Origin: Microbacterium sp. AK009
GTDB lineage: Bacteria > Actinomycetota > Actinomycetes > Actinomycetales > Microbacteriaceae
Reading direction: 5' to 3'
DNA: 64,000 nucleotides
Assembly (NCBI RefSeq): GCF_013410955.1
Contig: NZ_JACCCG010000002.1
Location: forward strand, 372,001-436,000
The notes beneath the pieces were generated by a model. It was given only the letters and a program-made list of their open reading frames with translations. It had not been told where the DNA came from and ran no database searches. The position numbers and the translations under genes were made by a program. Shown here one piece after another: positions 1,242-33,540 of this stretch. Positions within the stretch are counted from its first letter, which is position 1, and every line of letters starts with the position of its first letter.

Positions 1242-3068
1242 GTGATCCAATTCGATGTTCCGGCCGTGGTCCCCGCCGACCCCCAAGCCAACATCAGCGA
1301 CCTCCTGGCGGAGCGCGTGAAGGCGACCCCCGAGCGCCCGCTGTTCGCCGTCCCCGAAGGAGACGGGTGGCGGGACATCACGGGCGCCCAGTTCCAGTCC
1401 CAGGTCGTCGCCCTGGCCAAGGGCCTCGTCGCCGCCGGCGTGGAACCGGGAGACAAGGTCGCCTTCATCGCCCGCACGACCTACGACTGGACCCTGGTCG
1501 ACTTCGCGATCTTCTTCGCCGGCGCCGTCATGGTGCCGATCTACGAGACGAGCTCCGCCGCGCAGATCTCTTGGATCCTCGCCGACTCGGGCGCCGTGGC
1601 CGTGATCGCCGAATCCGCCGAGCACGCGGGCCGCGTCGCCGAGGTGCGGGCCGAGCTGCCGCTCGTGCGCTCGGTCTGGCAGATGCACTCCGGCGATCTC
1701 GACGCCCTCGTCGCCCAGGGCAAGGACGTCACCGACGAGGAGATCGAACGTCGTCGCAACCTCGCGGTCGGCGCCGACATCGCCACCCTCATCTACACCT
1801 CGGGGTCGACGGGCCGCCCGAAGGGGTGCGTCCTCACCCACAGCAACTTCGTCGAGCTGGCACGCAACTCCGCGGTCGCGCTGAGCGAAGTGGTGCAGAC
1901 CCCCGGGGCATCCACGCTGCTGTTCATCACCACGGCGCACGTCTTCGCCCGCTTCATCTCGATCCTCAACGTCCACGCGGGCGTGAAGACCGGGCACCAG
2001 CCCGACACCAAGCAGCTGCTGCCCGCGCTCGGATCGTTCCAGCCGACCTTCCTGCTGGCGGTGCCGCGGGTGTTCGAGAAGGTGTACAACTCCGCCGAGC
2101 AGAAGGCCGAGGCCGGCGGCAAGGGCAAGATCTTCCGCGCCGCCGCCCATGCGGCGATCGAGCACTCCGCCCTGCTGCAGGACGGCAAGAAGATCCCCCT
2201 CGGCCTGCGGCTGAAGTTCCGCCTGTTCGACCGTCTGGTCTACAGCAAGCTCCGCGCGGCGATGGGCGGACGGGTCACCTACGCGGTGTCCGGCTCCGCG
2301 CCGCTCGGCGAGCGACTGGGGCACTTCTTCCACAGCCTGGGCGTCGTCATCCTCGAGGGCTACGGCCTCACCGAGACCACGGCTCCGGCCACGGTGAACC
2401 TCGCCACCAAGTCGAAGATCGGCACCGTCGGTCCCGCCCTGCCGGGAGTGAGCGTCCGACTCGCCGACGACGGCGAGATCGAAGTTCGCGGCATCAACGT
2501 CTTCAAGGAGTACTGGCGCAACCCCGAGGCCACGGCCGCCGCGTTCGACGGCGACTGGTTCAAGACCGGCGACATCGGCTCGTTCGACGCCGAGGGGTTC
2601 CTCAAGATCACCGGGCGGAAGAAAGAGATCATCGTCACCGCGGGCGGCAAGAACGTCGCCCCCGCGGCGCTGGAGGATCCGATCCGCGCCAACCCGATCG
2701 TCGGCCAGGTCGTCGTCGTGGGTGATCAGAAGCCCTTCATCTCGGCGCTGATCACCCTGGACCCCGAGATGCTGCCGACGTGGCTTGCGAACAACGGGCT
2801 GCCCGGCGACATGTCGCTGGCCGACGCGGCGAAGAACGAGAAGGTCCGTGCTGAGGTCCAGCGCGCCGTCGACAACGCCAACACGACCGTCTCCCGGGCG
2901 GAGTCCATCCGCAAGTTCACGATTCTGCCCTCGGAGTGGACCGAAGCCAGCGGCCACCTCACCCCCAAGATGAGCATCAAGCGGCATACGATCGTGAACG
3001 ACTTCGCCGCGGAGATCGACGAGATCTACTCCGCGCCGGTCAACACCACGAACGTCTCGATTCCCTGA
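1242..3068 (+). CDS. Long-chain fatty-acid--CoA ligase (AMP-forming)
   Basis: This 608-aa enzyme activates long-chain fatty acids to acyl-CoA through an acyl-adenylate, feeding beta-oxidation or lipid synthesis. The ANL-superfamily motifs are all present: YTSGSTGRPKG (P-loop, about residue 185), GYGLTETTAPATVN (about 375), KTGDIGSFDAEGFLKITGRKK (about 445-465) and the C-terminal-domain hinge. Length and the motif GRKKEIIVTAGGKNVAP fit FadD15-type actinobacterial synthetases. The GTG start is supported by AAGGAG at 1231-1236, five bases upstream. The gene is monocistronic and ends before a bidirectional terminator. The chain-length range cannot be read from sequence. Confidence 0.95.
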   Translation: MIQFDVPAVVPADPQANISDLLAERVKATPERPLFAVPEGDGWRDITGAQFQSQVVALAKGLVAAGVEPGDKVAFIARTTYDWTLVDFAIFFAGAVMVPIYETSSAAQISWILADSGAVAVIAESAEHAGRVAEVRAELPLVRSVWQMHSGDLDALVAQGKDVTDEEIERRRNLAVGADIATLIYTSGSTGRPKGCVLTHSNFVELARNSAVALSEVVQTPGASTLLFITTAHVFARFISILNVHAGVKTGHQPDTKQLLPALGSFQPTFLLAVPRVFEKVYNSAEQKAEAGGKGKIFRAAAHAAIEHSALLQDGKKIPLGLRLKFRLFDRLVYSKLRAAMGGRVTYAVSGSAPLGERLGHFFHSLGVVILEGYGLTETTAPATVNLATKSKIGTVGPALPGVSVRLADDGEIEVRGINVFKEYWRNPEATAAAFDGDWFKTGDIGSFDAEGFLKITGRKKEIIVTAGGKNVAPAALEDPIRANPIVGQVVVVGDQKPFISALITLDPEMLPTWLANNGLPGDMSLADAAKNEKVRAEVQRAVDNANTTVSRAESIRKFTILPSEWTEASGHLTPKMSIKRHTIVNDFAAEIDEIYSAPVNTTNVSIP

Positions 3069-3083
3069 CCGGATGATCGGCGT

Positions 3084-3122
3084 GAGCCGGATCACGGCCG
3101 CTTCAGGGCAGTGATCCGGCTC
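3084..3122. terminator. Bidirectional hairpin terminator between fadD-like gene and def
   Basis: A perfect 12-bp inverted repeat, GAGCCGGATCAC (3084-3095) and GTGATCCGGCTC (3111-3122), encloses a 15-base loop. It lies between two convergent genes: the ligase stops 15 bp to the left and the deformylase stop codon begins 3 bp to the right. There is no T-tract, as is usual for GC-rich terminators. Confidence 0.75.
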
Positions 3123-3125
3123 GCG

Positions 3126-3617
3126 TCAGAACCAGTCGGACTCGCGCACCTCGCGCATCGCGATCTTGCGGTCCTCGGGGCGCAGCCGCGAGAGGTAGAG
3201 CAGTCCGTCGAGATGGTCGGTCTCGTGCTGGAGCGCCTGGGCGAGAAGGCCCTCGCCCTCGATGATGCGCTCCGCTCCGTCGAGGTCGATGCCGCGCACC
3301 CGGGCGTAGGGGTGACGCAGCGCGTCGTGCCACAGACCGGGAACCGACAGGCATCCCTCCCCCGTGGGGACGGGCTCGCCCGACACCTCCTCGAGGACGG
3401 GGTTGAGGATGTACCCGATGTCACCGTCGATGTTGTAGCTGAACGCGCGCAGCGGCACCCCGATCTGCGGGGCGGCGACGCCCGCGCGACCAGGGAGCTC
3501 GACGGTGTCGAGCAGGTCCTGCACGAGGGCGCGGACGCCGTCGTCGATCGTGGTGACCGGCGCACTCGGGGCGCGCAGCACCGGGTCGCCGAAGAGGCGG
3601 ATGGGGCGAACCGTCAT
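3126..3617 (-). CDS. def: Peptide deformylase
   Basis: This 163-aa metalloenzyme removes the formyl group from the N-terminal methionine of new proteins. All three family motifs are visible: GVAAPQIG (motif 1), EGCLSVPG (motif 2, whose Cys binds the metal) and QHETDHLDG (motif 3, HEXXH-type with the catalytic Glu). The length is normal for a compact deformylase. It starts 10 bp after the stop of the MinD-like ATPase gene on the same strand, so it is probably cotranscribed with it. Confidence 0.96.
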
Positions 3618-3627
3618 CGGATCGCGC

Positions 3628-5217
3628 TCACGCGGCCGGGGCGAGGTCCCGCAGGCCCTCGACGACGGTCGCCGCCAGCTCGCGCGCCGCGAGACGCGTG
3701 GCCGGCTGCAGGTCGCGGAACGTGATGGCGCTCCCCGCCGCGATCTGCGGGTCGAAGGGCAACCTGATCACGGCGCGCACGCGGCTCCGGAAGTGGGTCT
3801 CCAGCTCGTCGGGGCGCACGACCGGCGGACCGGGGCGGGAATTGTTCAGCACGACCACGGCGTTCTTCACGTGCTCGGCGTACCCGTTGGTCTCCAGCCA
3901 CGTCAAGGTCTCCGACGCAAGGCGCGCCTCGTCGACGCTGAGGCCCGCCACGACGACGAGCTGGTCGGCCAGCTCGAGCGTGGCTCCCATGACGGAGTGG
4001 ACGATGCCGGTGCCGGTGTCGGTGAGCACGATGGAGTAGTAGTGCGCTGCGAGGGTGGCCACGTCGTGGTAGTCGCGGTCGCTGAACGCTTCGGAGACCC
4101 GGGGGTCGGCGTCGGACGCGAGAACGTCCAGTCGGGTCGCGTCGCGCGCGACGATACGGGAGATGTCGTTGTATCCGTTCACCTCCGCGCGGGCACGCGC
4201 GAGGTCGCGGACCGTCTTGCCGTTGGCTCGGGCGATGCGCTCGGCGAGCGTCCCCCGGTCGGGGTTGGCGTCGACCGCGATGACACGATCGTCGCGGGCG
4301 TCTGCCAGCGCCATTCCGAGGAGCGTGGTGACGGTCGTCTTGCCGACTCCGCCCTTGCGCGAGAGGACGGGGACGAAGCGCGCGCCGCCGGTGAGGGGCG
4401 CGCCGATCCGACGATCGAGCTCCTTGCGCGCGCGGGCGCGCCTGCTGTCGCCGAGGTTGACCCGTCGGCCGGTGAGCGAGTAGACCAGGTGACGCCACAC
4501 ACCCTCAGGCTCGGCGCGTACGAGGTGGCGCTGATCGAGCAGCCGGTCGGGAGTGAGCAGATCGGGCGTCTCCCGGCCTCCCTCGAACTCGCCGAGGCGC
4601 TTAGAGGATAGGGCGACCTCGTTGCGCGTCGTCACGCGCTCGGCTGACCGGGCGCGCTGCGGGCGTTGGGGCTGATCGGGGTGCTGCAGCTCCCACCGTG
4701 TCGCGGGGACCGAGCCGGTGCGGGTGGTCGGCGCGGCGGTCGCGGGAGCCGGATCCGGCGGCGTCGCCGGCGTGCTGCCCTCGGCAGGACCGACGAGCGC
4801 CGCGGCGGGCTCAGGGATGTCTTCGACGATATCGGCGTCGACGTGGTCGGCGTCGCCGGCGTGAGCGTCGTCGTCGATGTGCGCGGGGTGGGCGTCGTCC
4901 TCGACGATCTCGGCCTCAGCGGTCTCGGCCGGGGGCTCGATGGCGACCGGCTCACTCACCGGCGAGGCCGTGCCCGCGGCATCCACTGCCCCGCCCTCGG
5001 GCGAATCCGAAGCCTCGATCGCCTGCGGCATCTCGTCGTCCACGACGTCCTCGTCGTCGAGGGCGTCGTCATCGGTCGGAGAAGGAAGGATGACGCTGAC
5101 TTGGGCGGTCTGGCCGCTCAGTACTCCGAGAGCAGTCGAATCGATGCTCACGGTGTCGGGGAGGACGCCGTTCTCATCGTCGTCCTCGGGCGTTTCATCG
5201 AAGGCGTCGGGCGTCAC
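3628..5217 (-). CDS. MinD/ParA-like P-loop ATPase with long acidic N-terminal region
   Basis: This 529-aa protein has two parts. Residues 1 to about 200 are low-complexity, rich in Asp, Glu, Ala and Pro, and probably disordered. Residues 280-529 form a deviant-Walker ATPase: [10 protein letters not shown] at about 287-296 and [13 protein letters not shown] shortly after. A segment [11 protein letters not shown] (about 248-258) precedes the ATPase. From memory this arrangement resembles the EspI-type MinD-like proteins that accompany actinobacterial type VII secretion, but no secretion gene lies nearby, so the role is open. The GTG start is supported by AGGAG upstream. No transmembrane segment is evident. 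Confidence 0.8.
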
Positions 5218-5275
5218 TGCAGGTCTCCTGGAACAGGCACATCACTGCGCACTCACGGTGAGGCGCCGTTCCAGG

Positions 5276-8200
5276 CTAGTGCGCGGGGCGGATGACGACC
5301 AAAAGGTCGCCCGCCTCGACCTGTGCGGTCGCGGCGATCGCGATGCGCTCGACGACGCCGTCGACGGGCGCGGTGATGGCCGCCTCCATCTTCATCGCCT
5401 CGATCGAGGCGATCGGCTCTCCCGCGGCGACCGTGGCGCCGACCTCGATCTTGACGGTGACGACGCCGGCGAACGGTGCCGCGACCTGGCCGGGGCGCGA
5501 CGTGTCGGCCCGCTCGGCCGGACGGGTCTCGACACTGATGCTGCGGTCTCGCACATAGACGGGGCGGAGCTGCCCGTTCAGCGTGGTCATGACCGTGCGC
5601 ATGCCCTTGGCATCCGCTTCGCCGATGGCTTCGAGGCCGACGTAGAGCTGCACGCCGGGATCGATCTCGGCGACGTGCTCCTCGCCGGGCTTGAGTCCGT
5701 ACAGGTAGTCGGGGGTGCCGAGGCTCGAGAGGTCGCCGTACGCCTCCCGCGCCTTCTCGAACTCGCGTGCCGGACCGGGAAAGAGCAGGCGGTTGAGGGT
5801 GCGGCGCCGCGATGCCGCGTCGCCGTCGAGCCCTTCCCTCTCCTCCGACGTGAGCGGCGGGATCTCGATGGAGACGGTGCGGCCGGCCAGCACCTTCGTG
5901 CGGAAGGGCTCGGGCCACCCACCGGGAAGATCACCGAGCTCGCCGGCCATGAACCCGACGACGGAGTCGGGGATGTCGTAGTTCTGAGGGTTCTCGGCGA
6001 AGTCGGCCGGGTCGGCCTTGGCGGCGACCAGCGCGAGGGCGAGATCGCCCACCACCTTCGACGATGGCGTCACCTTCGGGATGCGTCCGAGGATGCGGTC
6101 GGCGGCGGCGTACATGTCCTCGATGAGCTCGAAGTCATCGGCCAGGCCCAGCGCGATCGCCTGCTGGCGCAGGTTCGAGAGCTGGCCGCCGGGGATCTCG
6201 TGGTGGTAGACCCGGCCGGTGGGACCGTCGAGCCCCGACTCGAAGGGGCGGTAGAGGTGCCGCACGCCCTCCCAGTAGGGTTCCAGGTCGCTCACCGCCT
6301 GGAGGTCGATCCCGGTGTCGCGGTCGGTGTGGGCGAGGGCTGCGACCAGCGCCGAGAGTGACGGCTGACTGGTCGTGCCCGCCAGGGGTGCCGCCGCGGC
6401 GTCGACGGCGTCGACGCCGGCCGCGCTCGCAGCCAGGAGGGTGGCCAGCTGACCCCCTGCAGTGTCGTGCGTGTGCAGGTGGACCGGGAGGTCGAAGCGT
6501 TCACGCAGAGCCGCGACCAGGCGTGCGGCCGCGGCGGGACGCAGGAGTCCTGCCATGTCCTTGATCGCGAGGATGTGAGCCCCCGACGCGACGATCTGCT
6601 CGGCGAGGCGCAGGTAGTAGTCCAGCGTGTACAGCTGCTCGGCGGGGTCGAGCAGGTCGCCGGTGTAGCAGACGGCGACCTCGGCCACGGCGGTGCCGGT
6701 GTCCAGGACCGAGCGGATGGCGGGCACCATCTGGTCGACGTCGTTGAGGGCGTCGAAGATGCGGAAGATGTCCACACCCGTCGAGGCCGCCTCGCGGACG
6801 AAGGCGTCGGTGACCTCGACCGGCCTGGGCGTGTAGCCGACGGTGTTGCGTCCGCGCAGCAGCATCTGGATGGGGATGTTGGGAACAGCGTCGCGGATCG
6901 CCGCGAGACGCTCCCAGGGATCTTCGGCGAGGAACCTCAGCGCCACGTCGTAGGTCGCACCGCCCCACGCCTCGATCGACAGCAGCTCTGGCGTCATCCG
7001 CGCCACGTGCGGCGCGCAGCGGACCAGGTCGCGCGTGCGCACGCGGGTGGCCAGGAGCGACTGGTGGGCGTCGCGGTAGGTGGTCTCGGTCACCGCCAGC
7101 GGCGTCTGCTCCCGCAGAGCTCGGGCGAAACCCGCCGGGCCCAGCTCCCGTAGGCGCTGCAGGTTGCCCGATGGTGCGGGGGCGAGCAGATCGATGTCCG
7201 GAAGCTTGCTGCCCGGTGACACCGAGACCGGCTTCTCGCCGTAGGGCCGGTTGACGGTGACATCGGCCAGCCAGTTCAGCAGCTTCGTCGCCCGGTCTCG
7301 CGACGGATGGCTGGTGAGCAGGCGCGGACGCTCCTCGATGAACGCCGTGGAGAGGTCACCCTCGACGAACGCCGGGTCGTCGAGGACGGCCCGAAGGAAC
7401 GGGATGTTGGTGGCGACGCCGCGGATGCGGAACTCGGCCAGCGCGCGCTTGGCGCGGGCGACGGCGGCCGGGTAGTCGCGCCCGCGGCAGGTGAGCTTGG
7501 CGAGCATCGAGTCGAAATGAGGGCTGATCTGCGAGCCCGCGGCCGTCGTCCCGCCGTCGAGGCGGATGCCGGCTCCGCCGGGCGAGCGGTAGGTCGTGAT
7601 CCGGCCGGTATCGGGACGGAAACCCAGGGCGGGGTCCTCCGTGGTGATGCGGCACTGCAGTGCGGCGCCGCGGAGCACGATCCGGTCCTGCGACAGGCCG
7701 AGGTCGGCGAGGGTCTCGCCCGCGGCGATGCGCATCTGCGACTGGACGAGGTCGATGTCGGTGACTTCTTCGGTGACGGTGTGCTCGACCTGGATGCGGG
7801 GGTTCATCTCGATGAAGACGTGCTGACCCGCCCGCTCCCCCGCCGTGTCGACGAGGAATTCTACGGTGCCGGCGTTGACGTACCCGATCGACTCGGCGAA
7901 AGCGACCGCGTCGCGGTGGATGCGCTGACGCAGCTCGTCGTCGAGGTTCGGTGCGGGCGCGATCTCGATGACCTTCTGGTGGCGGCGCTGCACCGAGCAG
8001 TCCCGTTCGAACAGGTGCACGGTGTGGCCCGTGGCATCCGCCAGGATCTGAACCTCGATGTGCCGCGGCCGCAAGACCGCCTGCTCGAGGAAGACGCGCG
8101 GGTCGCCGAAGGCCGCGCCGGCCTCGCGCATCGCCTCGGCGATCGCGGGCGGCAGCTCGCCCGGGGTCTCCACCCGGCGCATGCCGCGACCCCCGCCGCC

Positions 8201-27497: not shown

Positions 27498-28196
27498 ATG
27501 GCCTCGACGCGGACTCCCCCGCCCACGGCGCTCGGCCACACCCTGCTCCCGTTCACTCCGTACGGTCTGGTCGCCGCCGTCCACGTCATCTCGCTGGCGG
27601 CAGGCGCGTCCGGCGTCGCCGCGCCGACCAAACTCCTGCTCATGCCGCTTCTGGCGGTCGGCGTCGTCTGGGCCCTCCGCGGCGCGATCGCGCGCACCCC
27701 CGGCATCCTGCTCCTCATCGCGCTCGGCCTGTCGTGGCTCGGAGATGGCGCAGGCACGTTCTTCCCCTTCGCCCCGACCGTCCCGATGATGCTGCTCTGC
27801 TTCGGCCTGGCGCACGTGGCCTACATCGTGCTGTTCTGGCGCTTCCTCGCGCGTGACCCGGTGCCCCCGTGGGCCCTCGTGTATGCCGTCTGGTGGGGTG
27901 CGCTCCTCGCCGCGCTGTGGCCGCACCTCGGAGCGCTCCTGCTTCCCGTGGCGGTCTACGGCCTGGTTCTCGGGGGCACCGCGGTCGCCGCGTCCCGCGC
28001 AGGGGCGACGATCGCCGTGGGTGGGGCGTTCTTCCTCACGTCCGACTCGATCCTCGCCTTCGACCTGTTCTGGCCCGACGCGCCGACGGCCCTGACCGGC
28101 CCGCTGGTGATGCTCACGTACACCCTCGGACAGGGGCTCATCGCGCTCGGCGTGGTGCGGGCGCTCTCCTCCGCCGCCCGAGGAGGCCCAAGATGA
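27498..28196 (+). CDS. YhhN-family membrane protein (lysoplasmalogenase-like)
   Basis: This 232-aa protein has about eight transmembrane helices and the YhhN features KLLLMPLLAVGVVWAL, GLSWLGDGAGTFF and GGAFFLTSDSILAFDLF, whose Asp residues form the putative active site. Relatives hydrolyse the vinyl-ether bond of lysoplasmalogens; most bacterial members are untested. The ATG has TACTCT (27486-27491) ending 6 bases upstream and no Shine-Dalgarno, so the mRNA may be leaderless. The next gene overlaps its stop by 4 bp. Confidence 0.88.
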   Translation: MASTRTPPPTALGHTLLPFTPYGLVAAVHVISLAAGASGVAAPTKLLLMPLLAVGVVWALRGAIARTPGILLLIALGLSWLGDGAGTFFPFAPTVPMMLLCFGLAHVAYIVLFWRFLARDPVPPWALVYAVWWGALLAALWPHLGALLLPVAVYGLVLGGTAVAASRAGATIAVGGAFFLTSDSILAFDLFWPDAPTALTGPLVMLTYTLGQGLIALGVVRALSSAARGGPR

Positions 28197-28561
28197 CCGA
28201 GGGCACCACCCGCGTGGATGCGTGGCTCTGGGCGATCCGCATCTACAAGACCCGTTCCGCTGCGACGACGGCCTGCCGAGCGGGGCACGTCCGCGTCAAC
28301 GGAGAACGGGCCAAGGCAGCGGTGCAGGTGCGGCCCGGCGACGAGCTGCGCGTTCGCATCCAGGGGTTCGACCGGATCCTGGTGGTGCGCCAGACGATCT
28401 CCAAGCGCGTCGGAGCCGCGGTCGCCGCATCCGCCTTCGAAGATCGCACACCGCCCCCGCCCCCGCGGGAGCTCGCCGGCTCCGTCCCGGTGCGCGACCG
28501 CGGCGCCGGGAGACCGACGAAGCGCGAACGACGCGACCTCGACCGACTGCGCGGCCGCTGA
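28193..28561 (+). CDS. S4-domain RNA-binding protein (Hsp15-like)
   Basis: This 122-aa protein has an N-terminal S4 domain: TRVDAWLWAIRIYKTRSAAT, then GHVRVNGERAKAAVQVRPGDELRVR, matching Hsp15/YrfH-type proteins that rescue stalled 50S subunits carrying nascent chains. The C-terminal half is basic (GAGRPTKRERRDLDRLRGR) and could bind RNA. The ATG overlaps the yhhN-like stop (ATGA) and has AGGAGG upstream. Confidence 0.9.
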   Translation: MTEGTTRVDAWLWAIRIYKTRSAATTACRAGHVRVNGERAKAAVQVRPGDELRVRIQGFDRILVVRQTISKRVGAAVAASAFEDRTPPPPPRELAGSVPVRDRGAGRPTKRERRDLDRLRGR

Positions 28562-29201: not shown

Positions 29202-30116
29202 CTACGAGCTCACCTCGCCCGGCAGGCTGTCGAGCAGCCATCGGGCGCCGCGGCTCACCGCACCGACGGCGCCCACGCGTGCCGCGAGCTCCCGATCGCT
29301 CGTGATCACGGTCACCGCTTCGCCGCGGGCCGCGGCGGCCGCCGCCGCCTCGACGATCTCATCGTCCCCCGCCTGAGAGGCGCGGACGACCTCGAGCCCC
29401 TCCGGCATCGGTGCGCGCCGGGCCTCGCCTTCCACGACGGCGATGATGCGGGGAAACCACAGCTCGCCCCAGAGCCCGAGCGCTTCTGCGTCGACGCCCG
29501 CGTCGACGAGATGCCGCAGGCGGCGGAGCATCCGGTCCGCCGCCCCCGCGCGATCGCGCCACCAGCCGTCGGGAACCGCACCGACGACGTTGGCCACATC
29601 GACGATCAGGGTAGGTCGTGTCCGCAGGTTCTCCTGCAACGATGGCCAGGCCGCACCAAACCCGGGGTGCAGCGGATAGTCCTCGACCTCGTCCAGCCCG
29701 ACCCATGCCAGCTCCAAGCTCTCCGGGTCGGCGATCACCGGCTCGAAGGGCACCACCACCTCGGCGACGACGGTCGTGTAGGTCCAGATCCCCACGTCGA
29801 ACACGCTCACGAAGCGTGGACGGACCGCGCCCGCCGGCACGCCGGCTTCCTCTCGCGCCTCGCGCAATGCGGCGTCGGTGGCACCCTCGCCCTGGTGCCG
29901 CGCCCCGCCCGGCAGCCCCCATGTGCCGCCGAAGTGACTCCATCCGACACGGTGCTGCAGGAGCACGCCGCGCGTCGGGTCGACCGCGAGCAGCCCGGCC
30001 GCACCGAAACGGCCCCAGTACCGCTCCCCGGTCTCCGCGACGACCCACGCGTCACCCGGATCGCGCGGCCCGCTCGGACGACGGGGCTCGCCCGGAGCCG
30101 GGGGTTGGATGCTCAC
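29202..30116 (-). CDS. Fusion of a Nudix hydrolase and a NYN/PIN-like nuclease domain
   Basis: This 304-aa protein has two domains. Residues 35-160 are a Nudix hydrolase with a complete Nudix box: G71, E77, then REAREEAGV at 85-93. Residues 168-300 look like a NYN/PIN-like nuclease: TLIVDVANVVG with D173 and N176, AGDDEIVEAA with D251 and D252, ITSDRELAARV with D274, and the ending SRGARWLLDSL. The second part could cleave RNA, and the first could act on capped RNA ends or nucleotides. CAGGCT ends 6 bases before the GTG start. The domain calls are firm for Nudix and fair for NYN. Confidence 0.85.
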   Translation of the reverse strand: MSIQPPAPGEPRRPSGPRDPGDAWVVAETGERYWGRFGAAGLLAVDPTRGVLLQHRVGWSHFGGTWGLPGGARHQGEGATDAALREAREEAGVPAGAVRPRFVSVFDVGIWTYTTVVAEVVVPFEPVIADPESLELAWVGLDEVEDYPLHPGFGAAWPSLQENLRTRPTLIVDVANVVGAVPDGWWRDRAGAADRMLRRLRHLVDAGVDAEALGLWGELWFPRIIAVVEGEARRAPMPEGLEVVRASQAGDDEIVEAAAAAAARGEAVTVITSDRELAARVGAVGAVSRGARWLLDSLPGEVSS

Positions 30117-30181
30117 CCACTCAGCCTGTCACAGCCCCGCGGTCCCGGGCCTTCGGCTGCGTCATCGGATGTCACAGCGCC

Positions 30182-31735
30182 TCAGCGCTGGCGTCGCTCC
30201 CGCACCCGCATATTCAGCACGATCGGCGTGCCTTCGAAGCCGTAGAGCTCCCGGAGGCGGCGCTGGATGAACCGGCGATACCCGGGATCGAGGAACCCCG
30301 TGGTGAACAGCACGAAGGTCGGCGGACGCGTCGACGCCTGCGTGCCGAACAGGATGCGAGGCTGCTTGCCCCCGCGAACCGGATGCGGGTGCTCGGCGAC
30401 GAGCTCGGAGAGGAACGCGTTGAACTTTCCGGTGGAGATACGCTGATCCCACGACCTCAGCGCGGTCTCCAGCGCCGGGACGAGCTTGTCCAGGTGGCGA
30501 CCGGTGCGGGCGGAGATGTTCACGCGCGGCGCCCAGGCGACGTGCGCGAGGTCCTGCTCGATCTCGCGCTCGAGGTAGCGGCGGCGGTCGGCGTTCTCGA
30601 GGTCGGCGTCGTTCAGGCGATCCCACTTGTTGAAGGCGAGCACGAGGGCCCGCCCCGACTCCAGCACGAGGTCGATGATGCGGACGTCCTGCTCGCTGAG
30701 CGACTCCGAGACGTCGAGCACGACGACGGCGACCTCGGCCTTCTCCAGCGCCGCCGACGTCCGCAGCGACGCGTAGAAGTCCGCCCCCTGCTGGAGGTGC
30801 ACGCGGCGTCGGATGCCGGCCGTGTCGACGAAGCGCCACAGCTTGCCGCCGAGCTCGACGACCTCGTCGACGGGGTCACGGGTGGTGCCCGCGAGTTCGT
30901 TGACGACGACCCGCTCCTCACCGGCGGCCTTGTTCAGCAGCGACGACTTGCCGACGTTCGGCCGCCCGAGGATCGCCACGCGGCGGGGCCCGCCGATCTC
31001 CTGCTTCGCGACCGCGGAGACCTCCGGCAGCACCTTCATCATCTCGTCGAGGAGGTCGGCGACCCCCCGGCCGTGGATGGCCGAGACGGGGTGCGGTTCT
31101 CCGAGACCGAGATTCCACAGGGCTGCAGCCTCGGGCTCCTGACGGGCGTCATCGATCTTGTTGGCGACGAGGAAGACGGGCTTGCCGCTCTTGCGCAGCA
31201 GCTTCACGACGTGCTCGTCCGTCGACGTCGCCCCCACCATCGCGTCGACGACGAACATCACGACGTCGCAGAGATCGATGGCGATCTCCGCCTGGGCGGC
31301 GACGGAGGCGTCGATGCCGCGGGCATCGGGCTCCCACCCGCCAGTGTCGACGATGGAGAACCGTCGGTCCATCCATTCGGCCTTGTAGGTCACCCGGTCG
31401 CGGGTCACCCCCGGTGTGTCCTCGACGACCGCCTCGCGGCGTCCGAGGATCCGGTTCACGAGCGCCGATTTACCGACATTCGGTCGTCCGACGATGGCGA
31501 CGACCGGCAGGGCCGGGAGGAATTCCACCCCCTCGCCGTCGTCGAGAAGACCGGCCAGGAGCGCCGCATCCTCTTCCTCGAGGTCGTAGTCCGACAGGCT
31601 CGCTCGGAGGGTCGCCGCGCGCTGCTCGGCGAGGTCGTCGTCGATGTCGGCGAGGGCCTCGGCGAGGTGATCTTCTCCCGCGGCGTACTCGCCGTCGTCG
31701 GGAAGGGCGTCGGCGGGACGCGTGTCATCGGACAT
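30182..31735 (-). CDS. der: Ribosome biogenesis GTPase Der (EngA)
   Basis: This 517-aa protein has two tandem GTPase domains. G1 motifs are [12 protein letters not shown] (about residue 84) and [12 protein letters not shown] (about 257), with DTGG and DTAG G3 motifs and NKID/NKWD G4 motifs. The C-terminal KH-like domain binds rRNA. Der assembles the 50S subunit. An acidic N-terminal extension of about 70 residues, usual in actinobacteria, precedes the first G domain. It overlaps cmk by 11 bp and is the last gene of the parA-scpAB-rluB-tyrA-cmk-der operon. Confidence 0.96.
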
Positions 31736-32414
31736 CGGAAACTCCCGTCTGCACGAGCGAATGCACGACGCCGAGGACGGCGTCGACGGTCTGTGCGAAA
31801 TCGAGGTCGGTCGAATCGACCACCGTCACTCCGGGAGCGGCGGTCAGGAAGTCGACCACCGCGCTGTCGGAGGTGTCGCGCCGCTCGAGCGCCGCCGCGA
31901 CGGCCGCGGTGTCGTCGGTGTCGAGCTCGGCGGACCGGCGCGCCGCGCGCACTCCCGGAGCGGCCGTGAGAAGGATGCGGACGGGGGCGTCGGGTGCGAG
32001 CACCGTGGTGATGTCGCGGCCTTCGACGACCACCCCCGATCTGTGCGAACCGGCGATCAGCGCGCGGAAGAGGGCATTGATGGATCGCCTGACCGGCGCC
32101 ACCCGGGCGACGCCGCTCACGGCGTCGGTGACGCGCTGCTCGCGGATGGCGGCAGTGACGTCGACCGTTCCGACACGGACCCAGTAGTCGTCGGGGTCGA
32201 GGGAGATGTCGTACGCGAAGTCACCGGCGAGCTCGAGCACCGCCGTGGCGTCGGAGGTGTCGGCGCCGTGCTCGAGCGCGTGCCAGGCCAGCGCCCGGTA
32301 GGCGGCCCCGGTGTCGAGGTAGCCGAAGCCGAGGCGACGTGCCACCTCTTTGGACACGCTGGATTTCCCGCTTCCCGCGGGGCCGTCGATGGCGACGACG
32401 AGGGGGTCAGTCAT
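31725..32414 (-). CDS. cmk: Cytidylate kinase
   Basis: This 229-aa enzyme phosphorylates CMP and dCMP. It begins [19 protein letters not shown] with the P-loop, then [16 protein letters not shown], and [15 protein letters not shown] and [10 protein letters not shown], all typical of bacterial Cmk. An in-frame ATG five codons earlier is less likely because the ATG at 32414 matches the normal N-terminus. It overlaps the tyrA stop by 8 bp and der by 11 bp. Confidence 0.95.
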
Positions 32415-33540
32415 TGGTGGTGCTCGCAATCTTCCAGCCGCGGGACTCCAGCCCCGCGATCGCAGGGCGGACGGCGCTGGGTACGACGCTGATCTCGGCG
32501 AGGCCGAACAGCGCTCCCGGCGAGTGCTCCAGCCGCAGATCTTCGACGTTCACTTCCAGTTCCCCGAGGTCGCCGAAGAGTCGGCCGAGCTGTCCCGGAC
32601 GGTCATCGACCATGACGACGACGGTCTCGAACCGCCGGTTCTGCCCGTGCTTCCCGGGCAGGCGCTCCACGCCCTCGTTGCCACGTCGGATCGTGTCGGC
32701 GATCGAGCGGCGGGCGCCAGGCGCTTCGGGGGCGCGGAGGGCGCCGGCGACGTCGGCGAGATCGGCGGCGACGGCGTCGAGGACGGATGCCACGGGCGCG
32801 GCGTTCGCGCCGAGGATCTGCACCCACAGCTCCGGGGCCGAGGCCGCGATCCGGGTCGTGTCGCGGACGCCCTGACCTGCCAGGCGCAGGAAGCCGTCGG
32901 GGGCGTCGACGAAGCGCGCGGCCAGGAGGCTCGCGACCAGCTGCGGCACGTGCGACATGAGCGCGACGGCGGCGTCGTGCTCTTCGGGGGTCATCTCCAG
33001 CGGTGTGGCACCGAGATCGAGGGCGAGGGCCTCGACGACGGCGAGGTCGCGGGAGGGGGTCTCCTCGTCCCGGCAGACCACCCAGGGCCTCCCCACGAAG
33101 ATGTCGGCGCGAGCGGCGATCGCACCACCGCGTTCACGTCCGGCCAGCGGGTGCGACCCGATGTAGTGGGTCAGATCCACGCCGCGCTCCCGAAGTGTGC
33201 GGAGCGGCTCGAGCTTGACGCTCGCGACATCCGTCACCACCGCCTGCGGGTGACGACGCAGTTCCCGCTCGATGACGTCAGCGGTGACATCGGGCGGCAC
33301 GGCCACGACGATGAGCACCGGTTCGTCATCGTCGCGGGTGGCGCGCCCCGCGCCGTAGTCGATCGCCAGGCGCAGCTGCGAGGGTGAGGTGTCGTCGAGG
33401 GCGACGTCGACGCCGAGCGCGCTCAGCGCGTGCCCGATGCTCGCCCCGAGCAGGCCCGAGCCGACGATGCGGACCGTCCCCTGAACCCGCGGCGCGAGCG
33501 GCGGGGCCGGGCGCGCGGCAGAGCTGTTCTCGAGGGTCAC
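32407..33540 (-). CDS. tyrA: Prephenate dehydrogenase with C-terminal ACT domain
   Basis: This 377-aa NAD(P)-dependent enzyme converts prephenate to 4-hydroxyphenylpyruvate in tyrosine synthesis. The nucleotide-binding motif is [15 protein letters not shown] (about 25-40). The catalytic region has [14 protein letters not shown] with the key His, and [13 protein letters not shown]. Residues from about 300 form an ACT-like domain ([17 protein letters not shown]), suggesting feedback control by tyrosine or another amino acid. It overlaps rluB and cmk. Confidence 0.95.

Follow-up and report, generated by a model that had tools for sequence, protein, structure and literature searches.

The window analyzed here, a 64,000-nucleotide stretch of Microbacterium sp. 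AK009, carries on its minus strand an open reading frame (29202–30116) that begins with a GTG at 30116, ends with a stop codon at 29204–29202, and encodes a protein of 304 amino acids. The original prediction had placed a Nudix hydrolase fused to a NYN/PIN-like nuclease at these coordinates; the coordinates stand, and the strand, which had gone unstated, is the minus strand. Since the plus strand opposite is likewise free of stop codons over 29202–30116, homology decides which strand is coding. The protein has orthologues elsewhere and a single match in the whole genome (3.46 Mb, 14 contigs). Its nearest named relatives belong to Microbacterium, as judged from 80 named loci that are the best 80 of 481 confirmed loci and are biased to close relatives. 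We also noted a 783-codon open frame on the plus strand (window 29618–31969), antisense to der and to the fusion gene, which is most likely a G+C artefact.

On the same strand, 65 bp upstream of the fusion gene, lies der (PF01926 and PF14714), followed by cmk and a prephenate dehydrogenase gene, and a convergent GNAT gene begins 12 bp past the fusion stop codon. As judged from frames of at least 100 amino acids and from gap lengths, these gaps are too short to accommodate an antitoxin gene next to the fusion, in agreement with the proposal that the gene is not part of a toxin pair. A der gene was found within 3 kb upstream, on the same strand, in 53 of the 80 named loci (48 from Microbacterium, plus L009, L024, L040, L056 and L057); the 27 loci that lack it comprise 24 from other genera and three from Microbacterium (L004, L017 and L018). 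A small S4-domain protein (PF01479; window 28193–28561, plus strand) is encoded two genes away from the fusion, and a relative of it was present within 3 kb downstream in 47/80 loci. ARAGORN called a tRNA-Leu (aag) at window 32611–32684 (minus strand), inside the prephenate dehydrogenase gene (32407–33540); this call is probably a false positive.

A −10-like element, CAGGCT, precedes the GTG start by six bases (30117–30128, minus strand). We compared the corresponding region in 41 orthologues, which were hand-picked from the 80 loci and are related by ancestry. In 36 of them, an AGGCT-like element lies 5 to 7 bases ahead of the start codon; the pattern was written after viewing these same 41 sequences, so that this count is descriptive. 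TANNNT, the first pattern tried, occurred in 1/41, and a Shine-Dalgarno-like pattern in 0/41. Across the window, an AGGCT-like element lies ahead of 8 of the 1759 ATG/GTG sites on one strand and 7 of the 1847 on the other. Collectively, these sequence patterns suggest that the fusion gene is probably leaderless with its own promoter, and the leaderless character that had been proposed is supported rather than proven.

The N-terminal half of the protein (residues 21–166; 29619–30056, minus strand) is predicted to be a Nudix domain of the RenU type. PF00293 matched residues 39–150 with an E-value of 2.1e-15 and 57.4 bits, above its curated cut-off of 21.1. A phmmer search of solved structures returned RenU of Mycobacterium smegmatis (msmeg_0790/rv0413, formerly annotated mutT3; PDB 6uuf) at 2.1e-37, followed by the next chain at 1.5e-5. 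The predicted model of the full-length protein matched 6uuf with a Z-score of 22.2 (rmsd 1.5, 146 residues, 53% identity), the next Nudix row scoring 15.8, and the match spans approximately residues 21–167. Both sequence and predicted fold therefore place this half nearest to mycobacterial RenU. The Nudix motif given for RenU in PMC4401782 is that of the fusion. The crystallized 6uuf chain has alanine at three Nudix-box positions, from which we infer that it is the catalytic mutant of PMC4401782. Unlike the fusion, RenU is described there as an ~17 kDa protein encoded next to pknG, and the 6uuf chain is, at 167 residues, too short to include a NYN domain.

Residue conservation was scored in 52 aligned fusions, i.e. 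the window copy and 51 of the 80 named loci. The Nudix box (residues 71–93; 29838–29906, minus strand) follows GX5EX7REUXEEXGU, and G71, E77, R85, E86, E89 and E90 are each present in 52/52, which bears out the intact box (E77, R85, E86, E89 and E90) of the original prediction. The hydrophobic position U after RE is occupied by a small residue (A in 37, S in 14 and G in one of the 52). Two other assignments were considered and set aside. A MutT1-like architecture gave a poor superposition, since Rv2985 (9cxx) aligned over 213 residues at an rmsd of 5.5 and Rae1 matched the C-terminal half far better. Likewise, a search for defense systems returned, as the sole PADLOC match at E 0.01, the Nudix part against PDC-S07 (20.4 bits).

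The Nudix half had been suggested to act on RNA 5' ends, removing NAD caps or triphosphates, after which the NYN half cuts the same RNA. Both parts could act on RNA, and yeast Dcp2 (4kg3) matched the model with a Z-score of 14.4, as one among many Nudix rows that score alike. In addition, the NYN endoribonuclease MARF1 is found in human cells in association with DCP1:DCP2, a Nudix decapping complex (PMC6294520). MARF1 shares with the fusion its NYN fold and acidic cluster; unlike the two halves of the fusion, however, MARF1 and DCP1:DCP2 are separate proteins, MARF1 has RRM and LOTUS domains in addition, and the mouse NYN domain matched the C-terminal half with a Z-score of only 8.2. Against cap removal, RenU, the nearest relative, hydrolyzes free FAD, ADP-ribose and NADH (PMC4401782). 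None of the NCBIfam models reached its cut-off for the fusion protein, and those for RNA pyrophosphohydrolases, whose cut-offs range from 116 to 154.4, scored between 11.8 and 17.1 bits. The Zn-ribbon of NudC (PF09297) had no match in the fusion protein up to an E-value of 10. By contrast, Zn_ribbon_NUD matched once outside the window (G000:C4:308214-308300; 150 of 252 candidates scored), in a separate 342-codon frame of the same genome that also has an SQAWPYPRS stretch, which we take to resemble the NudC motif. The genome is thus predicted to have a NudC-type Nudix protein distinct from the fusion. Cap removal by the fusion appears improbable to us, and because cap opening by its Nudix half lacks support, the description of the protein as a self-contained RNA decay enzyme amounts to a guess.

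The C-terminal half (residues 167–304; 29205–29618, minus strand) is predicted to be a NYN domain of the Rae1/YacP type. In the full-length AF2 model (pLDDT 91.5, pTM 0.86), residues 167–304 matched Rae1 with a Z-score of 16.6. When the C-terminal part was modeled alone (pLDDT 91.8), Rae1 again gave the best matches (Z-scores of 15.0 and 14.9), followed by ExoIX (8.3) and the mouse Marf1 NYN domain. Thus the structure prediction on which the nuclease assignment had been staked returned a NYN fold. Like Rae1/YacP of Bacillus subtilis (5mq8 and 5mq9), this half has a five-stranded NYN fold, with Z-scores of 14.9 to 16.6 and 23–24% identity.

At the level of sequence profiles, the assignment is less direct. 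PF05991 (NYN_YacP; cut-off 24.6) scored below its cut-off for both the full-length protein (16.1 bits) and the C-terminal half (18.7 bits). Among 20 aligned relatives, 12 matched PF05991 with E-values no higher than 1 (the best being 9.9e-5), and for two or three there were matches to other families of the PIN or FEN type. When solved structures were searched with a sequence profile, Rae1 had an E-value of 0.76 and ranked after an unrelated chain (0.051). Because the PF05991 match is sub-threshold, the NYN claim rests on structure, profile comparison and intermediates. The intermediates are stand-alone proteins that were found by the C-terminal profile of the fusion and that, at matching positions, also exceed the PF05991 cut-off; examples are G143:C1 near 2064240, G134:C11 near 2939 and G072:C5 near 233840. 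In hhalign, a set of 38 domains that carry the GWW motif described below aligned to 22 canonical YacP rows with a probability of 96.1 and an E-value of 3.2e-9 (controls: reversed 0.1, Nudix 0.2), and the 20 fused rows alone gave 83.5 and 8.4e-6 (controls 0.2 and 0.4). Predicted structure settles the NYN fold of the C-terminal half, the family profile alone being insecure, and the combination of both domains in one 304-residue chain, as originally proposed, is thereby upheld. In a whole-genome search, the only Rae1-type NYN was the fusion gene itself, as a weak match under the PF05991 cut-off.

The alignment with canonical YacP puts the motifs of the two families in register. D173 and N176 correspond to DGYN, E229 (29430–29432, minus strand) to the Asp of the 'FDA' motif, D251 (with D252, 29361–29366, minus strand) to 'TAD', and D274 (29295–29297, minus strand) to 'TSD'. 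D173, N176, E229, D251 and D274 are each invariant in the 52 aligned fusions, so that no loss in orthologues speaks against a nuclease. Of the acidic pattern in the original prediction, D173, N176, D251 and D274 stand, while the alternative D252 does not (D in 44/52; G, E or Q in eight), and E229 had not been named. PMC6294520 describes the MARF1 NYN domain as cutting RNA in vitro, with acidic residues D358, D426, D427 and D452; the acidic set of the fusion corresponds to these by motif order rather than by computed superposition. D173, E229, D251 and D274 would hold the metal, with N176 supporting them.

Two differences from Rae1/YacP, besides the joined Nudix domain and the E for D in the 'FDA' motif, set the fusion apart. 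First, the C-terminal tail of YacP is absent from its NYN domain in the alignment with canonical YacP, so the fusion may not act on the ribosome in the way that Rae1 does. Second, D173-x-A-N176 is followed by a GWW(R/K)DR motif (residues 173–189; 29550–29600, minus strand), in which D173, A175, N176, W185, W186, D188 and R189 are conserved in 52/52. GWW was absent from all 22 canonical YacP rows and present in all 18 stand-alone NYN proteins of Actinomycetota that were read (out of 26 such loci). These stand-alone proteins share the domain and the motif with the fusion but have no Nudix domain, and at 0/26 loci was there a gene for a RenU-type Nudix protein within 1.5 kb. Long frames at five of the stand-alone loci (L090, L094, L101, L106 and L111) were considered as other fusions and dismissed by eye as overlap frames.

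In the full-length model, approximately four residues link the final helix of the Nudix domain to the first strand of the NYN domain. Such a short link and a confident joint model would be compatible with a Nudix half that serves mainly as a sensor, binding ADP-ribose, NADH or FAD and thereby switching the NYN nuclease. A precedent is NrtR, whose Nudix-like domain senses ADP-ribose and controls DNA binding, and NrtR with ADP-ribose (3gz8) was among the fold matches (Z-score 15.3). However, comparable scores were obtained with many other Nudix folds, and the conservation of the catalytic Nudix residues in 52/52 fusions suggests that catalysis is probably kept. We regard a mainly sensory Nudix half as rather unlikely.

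The fusion is a real, recurrent combination of two known parts. In 79 of the 80 named loci, a single frame covers both halves, at least as far as residue 269. The exception, L070 (Microbacterium sp. CH12i, 2989–3498), has the Nudix half only, in a 170-residue frame whose match stops at residue 166; there was no trace of NYN at an E-value of 1 in the fetched stretch, and the der, S4 and YhhN neighbors were present. Loss of the NYN half is a possible explanation. The survey of the fusion that had been called for was extended to 297 sampled genomes of the order, at least 67 of which have a one-frame fusion (a single match spanning both halves), and four further genomes have partial matches. The fused genomes belong to six families and include 13/13 sampled from the genus Microbacterium. 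A fused copy was also found in Nonomuraea. The NYN part was detected in 111/297 genomes of the order at an E-value of 1e-5 (two of them weak), and was unfused, with no spanning match among the matches listed, in 38/297, three of these being from the family of the window genome. In a sample of the phylum, the NYN part was found in 67/296 genomes, and PF05991 exceeded its cut-off in 98/149 genomes, the genome of the window excepted. Among phages, one record was matched, an unverified 9.9 kb fecal phage contig (L266, MT836529.1) that has the NYN part only (5001–5396; residues 158–300, 47.6% identity); the contig may represent bacterial DNA, or the phage may carry a copy.

In trees built from 60 Nudix rows and 65 NYN rows, the fused state had to change seven and six times, and three and two of these changes, respectively, are forced by well supported branches; the rows were hand-picked, support is weak at many forks, and the bootstrap of the Nudix tree is unsettled. 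These trees are compatible with a single ancient fusion followed by losses as well as with repeated fusion.

A RenU-type Nudix (E-value of 1e-20) was found elsewhere in 21/38 genomes with an unfused NYN and in 90/186 genomes without NYN (p = 0.48), and this lack of co-occurrence speaks against an obligate joint function. Nor did neighboring genes supply a common context. Clustering the neighbors of 20 stand-alone and 15 fused loci revealed no neighbor conserved across distant genera. Apart from the NYN/Nudix gene and its antisense frames, no neighbor group above the score limit covered more than three loci, and such groups consisted of L205–L207, all of one genus, except for one that also included L054. 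Guilt by association from NYN neighborhoods was set aside on this account, the groups being confined to at most three loci, nearly all of one genus.

These observations would fit two independent housekeeping enzymes that share a chain but are not functionally coupled: both parts occur alone (NYN unfused in the 38 genomes above, and many unfused Nudix proteins), they do not co-occur when unfused, a conserved neighborhood was not seen outside close relatives, and the fused state has been gained or lost repeatedly. On the other hand, a fusion kept throughout the sampled members of its genus and present in six families is more persistent than a neutral accident suggests. We consider such uncoupled enzymes a minority possibility, albeit one to be taken seriously.

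The reading that we favor, with some confidence, is that of a soluble bifunctional enzyme, a dinucleotide pyrophosphohydrolase and Rae1-like endoribonuclease in which RNA cutting would be coupled to the nucleotide or redox state. Its Nudix half would split free dinucleotide cofactors of the ADP-ribose, FAD or NADH type, and its NYN half would act as a divalent-metal endoribonuclease of the Rae1/YacP branch, most likely making a regulatory or quality-control cut in mRNA. Coupling might arise from shared location, or the RNase might respond when the Nudix half binds or turns over its ligand. We infer both enzymatic activities, the metal ligands and any coupling from homology and predicted structure. 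The lack of co-occurrence when unfused calls for caution on coupling, and the six to seven gains or losses of the fused state, together with a Nudix half without NYN at L070, also count against this bifunctional enzyme.

A more specific version can be drawn by analogy with the two nearest characterized proteins. Mycobacterial RenU binds ribosomal protein L13 and degrades NADH (PMC4401782), and Rae1 of Bacillus subtilis is a ribosome-associated endoribonuclease that cuts at the A site (PMC8266666). Because of these two properties, the fusion could be imagined as a ribosome-linked, redox-gated mRNA cutter, in which the RenU half docks on ribosomes and NADH, FAD or ADP-ribose determines when the mRNA under translation is cut by the Rae1 half. 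The lack of a YacP tail and the absence of co-occurrence when unfused weigh against this version, and we regard it as a long shot. If true, it would link redox state directly to translation-coupled mRNA decay.

Each half of the protein is of a known kind. In the literature scanned (titles and the starts of abstracts, with most subscription journals outside its scope), we found no description of a Nudix-NYN fusion or of a GWW-type NYN, i.e. neither the joined architecture nor the GWW branch. The fusion puts into one chain two enzymes that have separately been tied to ribosome or redox control, and it points to a GWW-type branch of Rae1-like NYN domains distributed across Actinomycetota. Should RNA cutting by the fusion be coupled to nucleotide state, the protein would be a simple and testable regulatory device; if the two halves are uncoupled, it would still offer a way into what the stand-alone GWW proteins do.
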